DNA from: Candidatus Giovannonibacteria bacterium | GTDB taxonomy: Bacteria; Patescibacteriota; Minisyncoccia; JACPKW01; UBA11713 | Direction of reading: 5' to 3' | NCBI GenBank assembly: GCA_023266875.1 | Contig: JAHFOJ010000003.1 | Span: forward strand, 38,239-75,210 | DNA: 36,972 nt | Part shown: piece by piece, positions 72 to 22,655 of the stretch | Layout of the letters: each line of letters starts with the position of its first letter | Position numbering within the stretch: position 1 is the first letter of the stretch | Position numbers and translations under genes: made by a program | Notes under the pieces: generated by a model | What the model was told of the DNA's origin: nothing | The model's database searches: none | Seen by the model: the letters and a program-made list of their open reading frames with translations, nothing else

Positions 72-2276
72 TTATCGCCTCGGTCCTCTGCGGTCGTCTC
101 GCTCCCTTGAAGTCTTGTGCGGTCTTTGCTCAAAACTTGATGGACCAGAATTATTTCTTGCCTGTGGGTCTTTAAGCTTTAATTCGGTCATATCCTTTAT
201 TGAGAGATTTATGCGGCCTAATTCATCTATATCCTTTATTTTTACAGGAACGTTATCCCCAAGCGTAACGACATCAGTAACGCGGTTTACCCGAAAAGGC
301 GCAAGCTCGGAAATATGAACAAGCCCCTCAACCCCAGGGACAATTTCTACCATTGCTCCGAAATCAAAAATTCTTGAAACTATTCCTTCAAAAGATTCGC
401 CTGCTTTATATTCGTGAGTGATTTGCTTGATTTTTTCCAGGGCCTTTGTCGCGCCCTCCATAGAACCTGTCACAAAAATAGTTCCATCCTGTTCAACGTC
501 AATTTGCGCTCCAGTTTCATCGATAATGGCGTTGATCATTTTCCCGCCAGGACCTATTACGTCGCGGATCTTTTCCGGATTTATTTTCAGCGAAAGAATT
601 CTCGGCGCAAATTGCGAAAGTTCTTTTCTCGGCTGACCAATGGCGCCTAGCATCACCTCCATTATTTTTTCGCGGGCAGCTTTCGCGTCAGTGAGCGTGT
701 CGCGTAATATTTCAATTGTTACGCCGTCTACTTTAACGTCCATTTGAATCGCGGTTACTCCTTCGCTTGTCCCTGCGGCTTTAAAATCCATATCGCCATA
801 ATGATCTTCCGGCCCCTGGATATCTGTTAAAACTTTATAATTTTTTTCTCCGCCCTGGGCGGAGGCTATCATAAGCCCCATAGCGATTCCCGCGACTGGC
901 CGCTTAATTGGAACGCCCGCGTCCATTAAGGCGAGAGTAGAACCGCAGGTCGATTCCTGCGAGGTTGATCCATTTGAAGAAAGAACTTCCGAAACAACCC
1001 TTATGGTATATGGGAATTCATCGACAGTCGGAAGCACTGGTAATAATGCCCGTTCAGCAAGCGCGCCGTGGCCAATTTCTCGCCGTCCCGGATTTCCCAT
1101 GCGCCCTGTCTCGCCCGGAGCAAAAGGAGGAAAATTATAGTGGTGAATGTAGCGTTTTTTTGCCTTAATCGACATTCCATCGACTATTTGCGTGTCCTGA
1201 GGTCCGCCGAGAGTCGCAATCGAAAGCACATGAGTTTCACCGCGGTAGAATAATCCGGACCCATGGGTTCGTGGCAGAATGGAAACCCCCGCCCATATTT
1301 TGCGAAGTTCCTTAAGCCCCCTGCCGTCCGGGCGTTTCCCAGATATCAAAATATTCTTATGGACAATTTCATCTATCATCCGCTCGTAGAGCCCGTCTGC
1401 GATACCCTTAAATTCTTCCCCTACGGAAGCTTTCACGGCTTCATCCCAAGCAGTTTTCAGTTCATGCAATTTTTCTCTTCGCGAAAATTTATCTTTAATA
1501 TAAATTGCTTCTTCTAACCCTTTTCGAAATTTTTCTTCAAACAAAGGAGCGAGAGTATCCGGCTCTAGTTTGATTTTCGGCATTATTTTTTCTTTACCCA
1601 TTTCTTTGATGATTTTCTTCTGAAAATTTTCAATCTTATCAATTTCTTTCTGGGCATAGCTAAGCGCTTCAAGCATAATATTTTCCGGAATTTCTTTGGC
1701 GCCTGCTTCTATCATGTTAATTTTTCCTCCCTTGCCAGAAACAACCATATCGAGATCGGATTTTTCAATTTCTTCTCGGGTCGGGTTCAAGATAAATTTT
1801 CCGTCGATTCTTCCAATGCGTATTGTTCCTACGGGGCCGTCCCAAGGAATTGAAGATGTCCCGAGCGCCAAAGATGCGGCAAGGCAAGCAATGATATCTG
1901 GTTCTGTCTCGCCGTCGAAAGAAAGAGTAAGCGCAACAACATGAACTTCGTTTCTGATTTTATGCGAAAAAAGCGGGCGAAGTCCGCGGTCGATTAACCG
2001 AGATACCAATATTGCTTCTTCCGACGGCCGACCTTCCCTTCTTACAAACCTTGAGCCGCCTATCATGCCCGCGGCATAAAACCGTTCTTCATAATCGACT
2101 GTGAGCGGGAAATAATCTATTCCTTCGCGCGCGTGCTGGGAAATTACCGCGGTTGCGAGAATTACAGTATCACCAATCCGAACCAAAGCTGAACCGTGCG
2201 CTTGTTCCGCTAAATTAGTAAATTCAACGGCAACAGCTTTACCGCCGAAATCGGTCGCGAATTTTTTTGTATTCAT
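72..2276 (-). CDS. pnp: Polyribonucleotide nucleotidyltransferase (PNPase)
   Basis: 734 aa ORF; two RNase PH-like domains, KH motif (IRDVIGPGGKMINAI) and C-terminal S1 domain (GESFEGIVSRIFDFGAMVEI). Confidence 0.97.
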   Translation of the reverse strand: MNTKKFATDFGGKAVAVEFTNLAEQAHGSALVRIGDTVILATAVISQHAREGIDYFPLTVDYEERFYAAGMIGGSRFVRREGRPSEEAILVSRLIDRGLRPLFSHKIRNEVHVVALTLSFDGETEPDIIACLAASLALGTSSIPWDGPVGTIRIGRIDGKFILNPTREEIEKSDLDMVVSGKGGKINMIEAGAKEIPENIMLEALSYAQKEIDKIENFQKKIIKEMGKEKIMPKIKLEPDTLAPLFEEKFRKGLEEAIYIKDKFSRREKLHELKTAWDEAVKASVGEEFKGIADGLYERMIDEIVHKNILISGKRPDGRGLKELRKIWAGVSILPRTHGSGLFYRGETHVLSIATLGGPQDTQIVDGMSIKAKKRYIHHYNFPPFAPGETGRMGNPGRREIGHGALAERALLPVLPTVDEFPYTIRVVSEVLSSNGSTSQESTCGSTLALMDAGVPIKRPVAGIAMGLMIASAQGGEKNYKVLTDIQGPEDHYGDMDFKAAGTSEGVTAIQMDVKVDGVTIEILRDTLTDAKAAREKIMEVMLGAIGQPRKELSQFAPRILSLKINPEKIRDVIGPGGKMINAIIDETGAQIDVEQDGTIFVTGSMEGATKALEKIKQITHEYKAGESFEGIVSRIFDFGAMVEIVPGVEGLVHISELAPFRVNRVTDVVTLGDNVPVKIKDIDELGRINLSIKDMTELKLKDPQARNNSGPSSFEQRPHKTSRERDDRRGPRR

Positions 2277-3332: not shown

Positions 3333-4244
3333 ATGCTATCTATAAAGGATCTGCATCAACAATATTTAGAAAATCTGGAAATTGAAAAAGGGCGTTCTAA
3401 AAAAACGGTCGAGAATTATGACCATTATTTGAAAAATTTCTTTGAATTCGCGAAAGTTGTATCCGTATCATCGATAGACGATGAAGTAGTCAGGCGTTAC
3501 AGACTCTATCTGAATAAAGGGAGCCTTAAGAAAAAAACACAGAATTATTATTTAATAGCGCTTAGAAATTTTTTGAAATTTTTGGCTTGGCGAAAAATTG
3601 AAAGTTTATCTGCCGAGCGAATCGCTTTGGCCAAGGTTGCCGAGCGAGATCTGGATTTGATTTCATCTGAAGAACTTGGGCGCCTGCTCGGCGCCCCAAA
3701 AGAAGGAGACATAAAATCGCTTCGCGATAAAGCGATCTTGGAACTTTTTTTCTCGACTGGTCTTCGGGTTTCGGAATTATGTTCGTTAAATCGCGATTCG
3801 GTTGATCTGAAAAAAGATGAGTTCTCGGTTCGCGGGAAGGGCGAGAAAGTCAGAGTTGTTTTTTTGTCGCAAGACGCGAAAAAATCGCTCGCTAATTATT
3901 TATCAAAGCGAAAAGATATCTCGGAAGCCCTTTTTGTGAATTTACGCGAAGGGAATCCGCTAGCTGGCGGAGAAAAAAAAGACGTGGAGGCGAGGCTCAC
4001 TCCCCGATCGATCGAGCGGATCATAAAATCATACGCCATAAAATCCGGAATTTCAAAGAAAGTCACGCCGCACGTTTTGCGGCATACTTTTGCCACGGAT
4101 CTTCTCCAAAATGGAGCTGATTTGCGGTCGGTTCAGGCAATGCTTGGCCACTCGAGCATAACAACCACTCAAATATATACCCATGTAACCGACCGGCAGC
4201 TAAAAGAGGTTCACAAAGCTTTCCATGCAAGGCACCGCCGATAA
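3333..4244 (+). CDS. Tyrosine recombinase, XerC/XerD-like
   Basis: N-terminal SAM-like domain plus catalytic R..HxxR..H/W..Y pattern (TGLRVSEL, HVLRHTFATDLL, LGHSSITTTQIYTH). Confidence 0.93.
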   Translation: MLSIKDLHQQYLENLEIEKGRSKKTVENYDHYLKNFFEFAKVVSVSSIDDEVVRRYRLYLNKGSLKKKTQNYYLIALRNFLKFLAWRKIESLSAERIALAKVAERDLDLISSEELGRLLGAPKEGDIKSLRDKAILELFFSTGLRVSELCSLNRDSVDLKKDEFSVRGKGEKVRVVFLSQDAKKSLANYLSKRKDISEALFVNLREGNPLAGGEKKDVEARLTPRSIERIIKSYAIKSGISKKVTPHVLRHTFATDLLQNGADLRSVQAMLGHSSITTTQIYTHVTDRQLKEVHKAFHARHRR

Positions 4245-4249
4245 AATCT

Positions 4250-4268
4250 GTCGAGATCGTATCTCTAC
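4250..4268 (-). repeat. REP-like palindrome 1 (GTAGAGATACGATCTCGAC on the minus strand)
   Basis: Imperfect hairpin with GTAG foot; supplies the TAG stop codon of the adjacent RAYT ORF; inverted relative to the copies at 4939 and 4987. Confidence 0.85.
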
Positions 4269-4936
4269 ACATCTTCGAGTAATAGACCTTTCTCGCTTTG
4301 TAAATCCCGATACGACCAATCAATTGCCGAAGTTAGTACATCTTTCGAATTTGGAAATAATTCAGCAATTAATTCTTTATCCAAGATCGGGTCTTTTTCG
4401 CTTGATAAAATTTTTCCAAGGCTGGACCATGGATATTCTGTTATGATTTTTCGCGCGGCATCAATATCATGCATGCTATTTGTTCTCCAATCTGACTGGG
4501 AGTAATCAAGATGATTCAGGTGAATGTAATTAAAAAGATGCGATAGGTAAACTTGTTTGTCGATATGTTTTGATCTGGATCTACCTTGAAATAGAACCCC
4601 GCTGTGATTGTATTTTGCATTGAAATACATGGTATAACCGATAAAAATTTTCTGTAGCAGCTTCGAAAGCTTTACTTCCTCATTACATCGAACAAGTAGG
4701 TGTATGTGATTTTTCATTAATACATAACATATTATTGAAGCCAGCGTGCTTGGTCTTTTATACGCGATTTCGATATCGACTTTAACTCGATTCAAAATAA
4801 GTTTTTTATCTAAATCAAGATTAAAAATGCTAAGACCTTTCAAAAAACGCTGATAGTCGTTTTCATCCAAGAAAATATCTCGTTTTTCAACTCCACGATT
4901 GTAAATATGATAGTATTCACCGCTCGCAAACCTCAT
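4265..4936 (-). mobile_element. REP-associated tyrosine transposase (RAYT / Y1_Tnp family)
   Basis: MRFASGEYYHIYNRGVEKRDIFLDENDYQRFL...YVLMKNHIHLLVR (HxH motif) and a downstream Tyr-containing segment; flanked by REP palindromes. Confidence 0.93.
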
Positions 4937-4938
4937 AT

Positions 4939-4957
4939 GTAGAGATCGTATCTCGAC
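4939..4957 (+). repeat. REP-like palindrome 2 (GTAGAGATCGTATCTCGAC)
   Basis: Same hairpin family as 4250-4268, with one internal mismatch near the foot. Confidence 0.85.
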
Positions 4958-4986
4958 AAAACATTAAAAACAAGGGAAAAACATGT

Positions 4987-5005
4987 GTAGAGATGCGATC
5001 TCGAC
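4987..5005 (+). repeat. REP-like palindrome 3 (GTAGAGATGCGATCTCGAC)
   Basis: Same family, GCG loop; one base different from REP1. Confidence 0.85.
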
Positions 5006-5176
5006 ATGTGCGTGATTATCGTTGTGCGAATTTGACTTTTAGCTTATTTCAATATATAATGCATTGATCTTTTAGCTATGTTGCTAGGAGGCTCCGTTTA
5101 ACGCGGAATGGATAGTTTTTTGACAAAAAAAATAGGAAAAAATAAAAAGAAAAAAACCCAAAAGGAGGGCGTGTTT

Positions 5177-8575: not shown

Positions 8576-10072
8576 ATGAAAGCGATTCCAAAAGAAATTC
8601 TCGAAGTAATATCCAAGCTTTGCAAAAATAATTTTGAAGCCTACTTAGTTGGTGGGTGTGTTCGTGATTTGCTTTTGGGAAATCCGCCAGCTGGCGGACC
8701 AAAAGATTGGGATATAACTACTAACGCGACGCCCGAAAAAATCCAAGAAATCTTTCCGGATAGTTTTTATGAAAATGAATATGGCACTGTCGGCGTTAAA
8801 ACAGGTTCAGAGGACGAAACGCTTGCTGTCGTGGAGGTTACCCCTTATCGAATTGAGGCAAAATATTCAGACAAGCGCCATCCAGACAAGGTGGAATTTT
8901 CAAAAAAACTGGAAGATGATTTAGGTCGCCGCGATTTTACTATAAATGCGCTTGCTATGGACTTAGGGAAGTCCGACTTCAAAGATGCTATGAGGTCGGA
9001 TTTCCGGATCGTAGATTTGTTTGGCGGCGAGGAAGATCTAAAGAAAAAAATAATCCGCGCGGTTGGCGATCCTGAAGAGCGGTTTCGGGAAGACGCGCTC
9101 CGTTTGATGAGGGCTGTTCGTTTCTCGGCGGAGCTCGATTTTGCAATTGAAGAGAAAACTATCAAAGCCATAAAAAACAACGCAGGCCTTTTGAAATTTA
9201 TCTCCAAAGAACGCGTCCGCGATGAATTCGTGAAAATTATAGAATCAGACTCCCCTGTTTTGGGGCTTGAGAAGCTCCGCGAGCTCGGTTTGCTTAAGGA
9301 ATTCATGCCGGAATTGCTTGAAGGATATGGCATTGGGCAGAATTTGCATCATATTTATACTGTCTGGGAACATAATTTGAAATCACTTGAGCACGCGGTT
9401 AGCGAAGGGTGGTCGCTTGATGTGAGAATGGCGGCTCTGTTACACGACGTCGGGAAACCTCGCGCGAAGCGGGGTGAGGGGAAATTTTCCACTTTCTACG
9501 GGCACGATATTGTTGGCGCGAAGATGGCGTATCAGATTTTAGAACGCCTGCGTTTTCCAAAAGAATTTATTGAAAAAGTGTCCAAATTAATCAGATATCA
9601 CCTTTTCTATTACAACGTGGACGAGGTTACGGAATCTTCAGTCAGGCGGCTTATCGCGAAAGTTGGCATAGAAGATATGGACGATCTGATAAAAGTGAGG
9701 ATTTGCGATAGGATTGGATCCGGAGTTCCCAAGGCAGAACCATATAAATTAAGGCACTTTCGCTTTATGGTTGAAAAACTCCAACGCGACCCGATTTCCG
9801 TCGGCATGTTAAAGGCGCGCGGCGAGGATGTGATGAGGGTTTGCAAAATTAGTCCGGGGCCGAGGATTGGGCGGATTTTATCCATTCTGCTCGACGAAGT
9901 CCTGGATGACCCGAAGAAAAACACTAAAAAATATCTTGATGAAAAAATTGCCAAACTCTGTCCCCTATCCGACCGCGAGCTTGCCGATTTAGCCAGGAAA
10001 GCGGAAGAGAAAAAAGTCTCACTGGAATCCGAAGAGATTGAAGAAATCAAGAAAAAGCATTACGTTAAATAA
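8576..10072 (+). CDS. cca: CCA tRNA nucleotidyltransferase with HD domain
   Basis: LVGGCVRDLLLG...DWDITTNATP, RRDFTINALAMD, EDALRLMRAVRF, HDVGKP HD motif. Confidence 0.95.
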   Translation: MKAIPKEILEVISKLCKNNFEAYLVGGCVRDLLLGNPPAGGPKDWDITTNATPEKIQEIFPDSFYENEYGTVGVKTGSEDETLAVVEVTPYRIEAKYSDKRHPDKVEFSKKLEDDLGRRDFTINALAMDLGKSDFKDAMRSDFRIVDLFGGEEDLKKKIIRAVGDPEERFREDALRLMRAVRFSAELDFAIEEKTIKAIKNNAGLLKFISKERVRDEFVKIIESDSPVLGLEKLRELGLLKEFMPELLEGYGIGQNLHHIYTVWEHNLKSLEHAVSEGWSLDVRMAALLHDVGKPRAKRGEGKFSTFYGHDIVGAKMAYQILERLRFPKEFIEKVSKLIRYHLFYYNVDEVTESSVRRLIAKVGIEDMDDLIKVRICDRIGSGVPKAEPYKLRHFRFMVEKLQRDPISVGMLKARGEDVMRVCKISPGPRIGRILSILLDEVLDDPKKNTKKYLDEKIAKLCPLSDRELADLARKAEEKKVSLESEEIEEIKKKHYVK

Positions 10073-21466: not shown

Positions 21467-22489
21467 TTATTCTTTTTGCTCTAATATCTTAAAAACTTTT
21501 TCGTTTCTTATAATACCATAAGCGTAGTCTTTCAATTTCTGCGGGTCAAGAGATTTAGCTTCTTCTTTTGGAACTTTGGAAAGTATGAGCATGGTCTCGT
21601 TTTGAAGCTCATCTTCGGAGACGGTTACGTTTTCTGCTTTGGCAATTTCTCTTAGCGTAAGTCCGTAGCGCACACGCTTTTCTGCTTCCAGCGCCCATTC
21701 TTTTTTCAGGTCTTCCTCTGTCTTTTTTATGTGGTCGAGATAGTGTTCCCAAGCTATTCCTATTCCAGACAGATTTTCCTTGAGCTCACCAACCATTTTT
21801 TGTTTTTCAAATTCAACCAGAATCGGCGGTACTTCAATATTACACGCACCGGCAATTGAATCTAGCGTTTCCATACGCTTTTTTTCCCCGTTCTTTATTA
21901 TTTTCTCCGCCTTTATGTTTTCTGCGAGATTCGCTTTCAGTGCTTCAAGGTTCTGAAAATCTCCCAAATTTTTTGCAAAATCGTCGTTAATTTCGGCGGA
22001 TCCGCCGGCTGGCAGATCGTCTTTCGCGCGCGCTTTTTGAAGGTATTCAAGCGCACTATCGATTTCTGAATTTTCCACCTTGATTTCCGGCTCCGTTCTC
22101 CAATAGACCGAGGCCGCGATATCTTTATAGTTCGGCAATTTTATTTCTGGAAGGGTAACGGATTTGATTTTAAACCCAAGAGGATTTCCGCGAGCAAGCT
22201 TGGTTATCACTATTTCGGGTTTTCCAATGGGCTCTATATTTTTCTCCTTTATTATTTTTGGCCAAAGATCCTCAAGCGCCATTTCCGCCGCTTCTTCAAG
22301 AATCTCCGCTTCGCCCACATTAGATATCAGAACATTTTCTGGAATTTTCCCCTGCCTGTATCCGTCGATTTTTGTCCGCGCGGAAACTTTCAGTACCGCT
22401 TCTTGCCAATATTGCCCGAAGGCCGGGGCCTCGAGCTCTCCTGAAATTTCAATATCGGTTCCAGATAAGTTTTTTAGCTCTAGATTCAT
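21467..22489 (-). CDS. tig: Trigger factor
   Basis: Trigger factor N-domain (GFxKGKIP-like [13 protein letters not shown]) and C-domain; probable start at [14 protein letters not shown] rather than the longer ORF start. Confidence 0.85.
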
Positions 22490-22655
22490 CCAGTTAGAAA
22501 ATTTACCAATAAATAAGAATTGATTAATAATAGCGAAGAAGCCATTTTTTTTCAAGCATACGAATAGCCTCACGAAAAATCACACCCAGCGAGGCATCGT
22601 GACCTCACGAAAAATCTAACCGAACGGTAACTTTGCTAGCTCACGGCCTTGTGGC

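Follow-up and report, generated by a model that had tools for sequence, protein, structure and literature searches.

Rickettsia palindromic elements (RPE) are repeats of 105-146 bp with terminal inverted repeats of about 12 bp; they are inserted in frame in conserved protein genes as well as in RNA genes, including that of RNase P RNA, and in the tested case the element is still translated (PMC2229807). REP elements are 20-40 bp long, tagged and mostly extragenic, with known intragenic cases, and are possibly moved by HUH/Y1 transposases (PMC3733652). Further, the short dispersed repeats of cyanobacteria (SDR, or 'very small mobile repeated elements') are 20-odd bp long, reside in genes and have no known enzyme.

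The window analysed here is a stretch of 36,972 nucleotides, positions 38239-75210 of contig C9 in the home genome (G000; 683,660 bp, 25 contigs) of a Candidatus Giovannonibacteria bacterium. An earlier, sequence-only reading had claimed a perfect in-frame 16-bp palindrome within a gene for a CCA-adding enzyme, and this claim held: TCCGCCAGCTGGCGGA occupies positions 8683-8698, and the open reading frame 8576-10072 matches the PolyA_pol, PolyA_pol_RNAbd and HD domains, which identify its product as a CCA-adding enzyme. The insert stands in the protein context G-N-PPAGG-P-KDWDI. The palindrome, its relatives in the window and their host genes are as follows.

8576-10072, plus strand: CCA-adding enzyme (tRNA nucleotidyltransferase, PolyA_pol + HD), host gene, 498 aa, from ORF and domain matches
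8683-8698, plus strand: perfect 16-bp palindrome, hairpin TCCGCC-AGCT-GGCGGA, encoding PPAGG; without counterpart in 6 family relatives and net +4 codons against all 15 insert-free homologues
3333-4244, plus strand: XerC/D-like tyrosine recombinase, host gene, from ORF and domain match
3956-3971, plus strand: one-mismatch copy TCCGCTAGCTGGCGGA, encoding PLAGG, in the tyrosine recombinase gene, in a loop of variable length
21467-22573, minus strand: trigger factor (tig), host gene, from ORF and domain match
22001-22016, minus strand: two-mismatch copy in tig, minus-strand reading TCTGCCAGCCGGCGGA, encoding LPAGG
21994-22007: further palindrome CGGCGGATCCGCCG, overlapping the tig copy at 22001-22016
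72-2276, minus strand: polynucleotide phosphorylase (pnp), host gene, assigned by visual reading of the sequence
849-863, minus strand: 15-bp cousin TCCGCCCTGGGCGGA, TCCGCC-CTG-GGCGGA, in pnp, reading SAQGG; loop length varies in relatives

The related same-frame palindromes claimed for the recombinase and tig genes were likewise confirmed, with one and two mismatches, respectively, and all three window copies (8683, 3956 and 22001) share the same reading phase. Matches with at most three mismatches number three in the window against 0.13 expected, and three were reached in 0 of 100 shuffles. GC-rich hairpins in general are also enriched in the window relative to shuffles.

The palindrome resembles RPE in being a hairpin repeat that lies in frame in otherwise conserved protein genes and also in RNase P RNA. 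It differs in its length of 16 bp (about 7-9 times shorter), its 6-bp stem, its occurrence across Patescibacteria and its apparent replacement of 4 bp. RPE were described from Rickettsia, and their length criterion of 105-146 bp is not met. The earlier suggestion of a Rickettsia-type palindromic element of much shorter length therefore held for behaviour and not for membership, which, without a sequence alignment to RPEs, is not shown. With REP elements and CGTC-tagged palindromes it shares the character of a short, GC-rich hairpin present in many copies and sometimes intragenic; unlike REP elements, it has no GTAG or CGTC tag, falls below 20-40 bp, is frequent in genes and has no REPtron among the loci seen. 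The cyanobacterial SDR differ from it in sequence, host phylum and palindromy.

We interpret the palindrome as an ultrashort, non-autonomous, hairpin-forming mobile element dispersed through Patescibacteria. This reading is likely (probability about 0.72) rather than established, as no enzyme, intermediate or strain-level new insertion has been seen. If the palindrome is mobile, at 16 bp it would rank with the smallest mobile DNA units on record, with room for a hairpin and nothing more.

The dispersal itself is shown. The home genome holds 6 exact copies; the count rises to 10 if one mismatch is allowed and to 15 if two are, compared with 0 for a reversed-word control, and most copies sit in long ORFs. 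At no more than one mismatch, 32 of 60 same-class genomes carry the palindrome, with up to 26 copies each and a reversed control of 0 in all; the other 28 hold no copy at this threshold. On the complete chromosome of G019, 27 sites are evenly spread (Kuiper p 0.72). Of 105 sampled copies, 57 lie inside long ORFs. At least 118 stretches of GTDB genomes contain a 20-mer core, AATCCGCCAGCTGGCGGACC, against a chance expectation estimated at about 0.5 in 264 Gb. Most carriers of this core are from the Parcubacteria, Microgenomates and Saccharibacteria groups; Bacteroidota, Marinimicrobia and Elusimicrobia contribute a few, and many of the matches fall within long ORFs of conserved genes (groEL, tkt, tpi, rnhB, thrS, argS and recJ, named by eye).

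Comparison with homologues shows that the palindrome is present in genes as an insertion. Homologues without it reveal true insertions in miaA, cca, ligA, uvrB, trmH, metG, yebC, ruvB, recG, thrS, argS, ksgA and leuS. In cca, six same-family relatives read GKKPKDWD or similar where the window enzyme reads GNPPAGGPKDWD, and a solved Planococcus-type CCA-adding enzyme has four residues missing at the PPAGG site, and in the PDB alignment the insert falls into a gap flanked by conserved segments. In the leuS products of G058 and G041 the insert parts two cysteines that form a C-x2-C motif in relatives, and in ileS of G019 it likewise lies between two cysteines. An automatic comparison with homologues gave +4 aa as the modal net gain (18 of 30 genic copies), and this value was unanimous in nine genes (cca, miaA, ligA, trmH, metG, yebC, ruvB, recG2 and recJ). 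Other net lengths were found in some variable-loop genes (pnp 0, tkt +6, rnhB +8, tig2 +3).

Because a complete 16-bp palindrome is accompanied by a net gain of 12 bp, 4 bp of the target have been replaced. Codon alignments give the replaced 4-mers as AAAA in cca, ACAA/GTTG in recG, GGAA/TGAT in thrS, TGAC in ruvB and TAAA in trxB; their dissimilarity to the palindrome speaks against a half-site having simply been completed, the exception being miaA, whose relatives have GGCGGA. Phase 0 and phase 1 copies alike yield +12 bp (uvrB and recG1 compared with the other genes). Frame selection alone would also permit +9, +15 and +18, and the consistency of +12 points to a defined event, as far as coding sites can tell. 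In the congeners G011 and G045 the terminator stems have diverged and offer no clean non-coding empty site, so the 16-for-4 rule rests on coding sites. No target-site duplication was found, since a net gain of 12 bp for a 16-bp insert means target loss; some transposons make no such duplication. Hence the entry of the palindrome as a 16-for-4 replacement is shown as regards net length, while the union of insertion and 4-bp loss in one event is inferred. The exchange is a precise and testable mechanistic clue.

Recurrence at the same sites is also shown. At least 7 of 392 class genomes have the cca insertion, the search pattern being restricted by some fixed codons, and their families include members without it. 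A tree of 24 CCA enzymes with the insert masked requires 6 changes, at least 5 of which are forced by well-supported branches, and 5 changes are needed when the insert columns are kept; a single clade of carriers is rejected (p-AU 1.5e-48). These changes may be gains or losses, but losses exact enough to restore both frame and loop are less likely, and the same cca insertion thus probably arose at least five times. Repeat insertions in one loop were also seen in tsaD, ligA, leuS, groEL and recG, the last by two different palindromes. Within one genus, ligA carries the palindrome in G006 and not in G002 or G005 (congeners with one genome per species, without strain pairs). Its recurrence at identical positions in essential genes over much of bacterial diversity amounts to a natural mutagenesis record of insertion-tolerant protein loops.

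The sequence behaves as a hairpin, with a 6-bp stem (TCCGCC/GGCGGA), an AGCT loop and an RNAfold energy of -10.2 kcal/mol. The mismatch falls within the four central bases, 25% of the positions, in 33 of 50 single-mismatch copies (p 1e-9); this concentration shows that the stem is conserved and the loop free, as is expected for a hairpin. Frame use in genic copies is 44:7:6, the PPAGG phase being favoured over the rarer SASWR and RQLAD frames. Genic flanks are asymmetric in the coding orientation (AA on the left, CC on the right) although the element is symmetric, which indicates selection for the peptide N-PPAGG-P rather than choice of a DNA target.

These results bear on the remaining claims of the sequence-only reading. 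It had described PPAGG as the inserted segment, which is corrected to a net gain of 4 residues (NPPAGGP against xxP) rather than 5. It would have been refuted had PPAGG been ancestral in the homologues or the palindrome not over-represented; neither is so, as six family members and the Planococcus-type enzyme are without the segment, and the over-representation is strong in the window, the genome and the relatives. The frame bias that it had proposed as a check supports a gene-inserting element, with all three frames used and PPAGG dominant, and so does the recurrence. The 16-for-4 swap, the hairpin tips of terminators and RNase P RNA described below, and the Patescibacteria-wide span extend beyond what it had claimed.

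A second palindrome, CTGCCTGCCGGCAGGCAG, which encodes LPAGRQ, occurs in 33 of 60 same-class genomes (control 0). Its insertions in recG, atpD and fmt add 5 to 6 aa; another lies in gltX, where the net length is unresolved. Gains of +5 or +6 aa leave room for the loss of 4 bp to be a peculiarity of the TCCGCCAGCTGGCGGA palindrome; the similar dispersal and mode of insertion of CTGCCTGCCGGCAGGCAG suggest that mobility extends to a wider set of hairpins. Our search of the open-access literature found neither TCCGCCAGCTGGCGGA nor CTGCCTGCCGGCAGGCAG as a word, and no paper on such elements in Patescibacteria. For annotation, the PPAGG, SASWR and LPAGRQ segments of these proteins should be treated as DNA-driven rather than protein-driven.

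Outside genes, copies often cap longer terminator-like hairpins that adjoin T runs, and the complementarity of their flanks is about 0.45-0.5, compared with about 0.25 for genic copies. In the RNase P RNA (RF00010) of G045 (L028, C16, about 1485-1530), the palindrome lies at a hairpin tip. In our own reading, which remains tentative, loop sites in proteins and hairpin tips in non-coding DNA both reflect the survival of low-harm insertions.

Other features were observed in the same genomes. The RNase P RNA gene of G045 holds another hairpin, TCCGCCTCGGCGGA. On contig C56 of G011 (L083, about 780-830), a tRNA-like fragment lies beside an intact tRNA, with the palindrome in the would-be D-loop. 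In G011 and G045 (L079, L081, L085, L087, L091, L098), the word TTTAAACGGCTCAA occurs singly and also in inverted pairs, which enclose the palindrome in terminator-like stems; it may be a DNA-uptake word of this genus.

Under the mobile-element reading, a copying event by an unidentified enzyme would place the 16-bp hairpin at a new site, and its arrival would swap out about 4 bp of the target, so that the net change is 12 bp and the reading frame survives. Selection would then filter the insertions. Proteins would keep them where a loop tolerates a proline-glycine turn (PPAGG, rarely SASWR or RQLAD), and in non-coding DNA they would survive chiefly at the tips of hairpins, as in terminators and RNase P RNA. 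That copies derive from copies in a transposition-like manner is inferred. A bolder reading, which we raise only as a possibility, is that a dedicated, hitherto unrecognised activity of Patescibacteria places ultrashort hairpins (16-18 bp, several families) and swaps out a fixed small number of target bases. If true, loops of essential enzymes have been remodelled across the whole radiation, among them a loop beside the active site of the CCA-adding enzyme and the C-x2-C motifs of tRNA synthetases.

The first alternative is a classical REP element moved by a RAYT (REP-associated Y1 tyrosine transposase). The window holds a candidate for such an enzyme.

4265-4936, minus strand: Y1_Tnp (IS200-like/RAYT-like) transposase gene, from a domain match; only a candidate for mobilising hairpins

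In favour of this alternative, 34 of 60 relatives possess Y1_Tnp genes, and the one in the window lies 3.7 kb upstream of the palindrome; palindrome copy number correlates weakly with Y1 number (Spearman 0.39, p 0.002); and REPs inside genes are known (PMC3733652). Against it, the window Y1_Tnp gene is bounded by a terminal inverted repeat of its own, TGTAGAGATCGTATCTCGACA (4249-4269 and 4938-4958, with a third, diverged copy at 4986-5006), and no TCCGCC palindrome flanks it; the locus, 4249-5006, resembles the TIR-flanked Y1 genes ('TIRtrons') reported in PMC3733652. Ten inspected Y1 loci, a set that leaves out most Y1 genes, showed no flanking palindrome copy and no REPtron, and 10 of 32 palindrome carriers are without any Y1_Tnp. 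Within 12 nt, the GTAG foot tag was found in 0 of 39 genic copies and CGTC in 1 of 39; in the other copies the counts were 1 of 33 and 4 of 33, respectively. The extragenic location typical of REP is not met either, given the share of sampled copies in long ORFs. The RAYT reading is thus unlikely, although a Y1/HUH transposase acting in trans remains the most concrete enzyme candidate, a weakly supported possibility as no enzyme has been identified. A viral vector was also considered and rejected: 49 exact matches in 2.9 million viral contigs are near the chance level estimated for such a collection.

A second alternative concerns cca only and holds that its insertion had a single origin, after which recombination carried a short piece of the gene from lineage to lineage. 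Most insert-bearing CCA enzymes do share the identical 20-bp core AATCCGCCAGCTGGCGGACC. However, the DNA flanking this core differs, several carriers group with empty members of their own families, AA-left and CC-right flanks are expected from selection for N-PPAGG-P, and independent insertions exist in many other genes. We regard this explanation, too, as improbable.

Third, the palindrome could be the binding site of a chromosome-organising protein, selected and not mobile. The sites of parS, matS and Noc are palindromes of 13-16 bp scattered over the chromosome, and a 16-bp palindrome with roughly 1-26 copies per genome, broad taxonomic conservation and both genic and intergenic positions would fit such a role. 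Unlike these sites, it arrives by a 12-bp net insertion and not by substitution, it keeps its stem but varies in loop length and in the central four bases, and the unrelated CTGCCTGCCGGCAGGCAG palindrome behaves alike. In addition, 28 of 60 relatives have no copy at one mismatch or fewer, and the even spread on the G019 chromosome reveals no domain clustering, although dispersed Noc-like sites are not excluded thereby. On balance this reading is very unlikely.

Equally hard to sustain is formation of the palindromes de novo, with a half-site already in place (such as GGCGGA) extended by fold-back or template-switch replication and no mobile element involved. Several miaA relatives have GGCGGA or GGCGGG at the site, where 12 bp could complete the palindrome, and the general enrichment of GC-rich hairpins in the window over shuffles agrees with it. 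Yet this process predicts arbitrary stems, whereas two exact sequences recur throughout the class and outside it, the AGCT loop of the first included, and no half-site is found at the empty sites of cca, recG, thrS, ksgA, ruvB and leuS.

Finally, DNA-uptake sequences for natural competence (DUS/USS) are short repeated words of coding DNA and terminator-like hairpins, and are far more numerous in Neisseria or Haemophilus. This explanation matches the palindrome in both locations but is all but excluded by entry through insertion, by the few copies per genome and by the half-site CTGGCGGA, which in the window (the only sequence counted) occurs 4 times against 1.0 expected, 3 of these within palindrome copies.

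In Olivibacter domesticus, a Bacteroidota isolate (L171, L186), two palindrome copies lie within a longer similar repeat (>60 bp). Looser hairpins of the form TCCGCC-N3/4-GGCGGA are also present in the home genome, some of them as double hairpins. Double hairpins of two 15-bp units, such as TCCGCCAAAGGCGGA followed by TCCGCCTCGGGCGGA (SAKGGSASGG), occur in grpE, alaS and uvrB, and folD holds TCCGCCAGAGGCGGA followed by CCAGCCTTTGGCTGG. The double-hairpin loci are as follows.

G000, contig C6, 12446-12475 (L020/L021)
G000, contig C6, 2315 (L019)
G001, uvrB (L281)
G000, contig C3, 12527 (L018)
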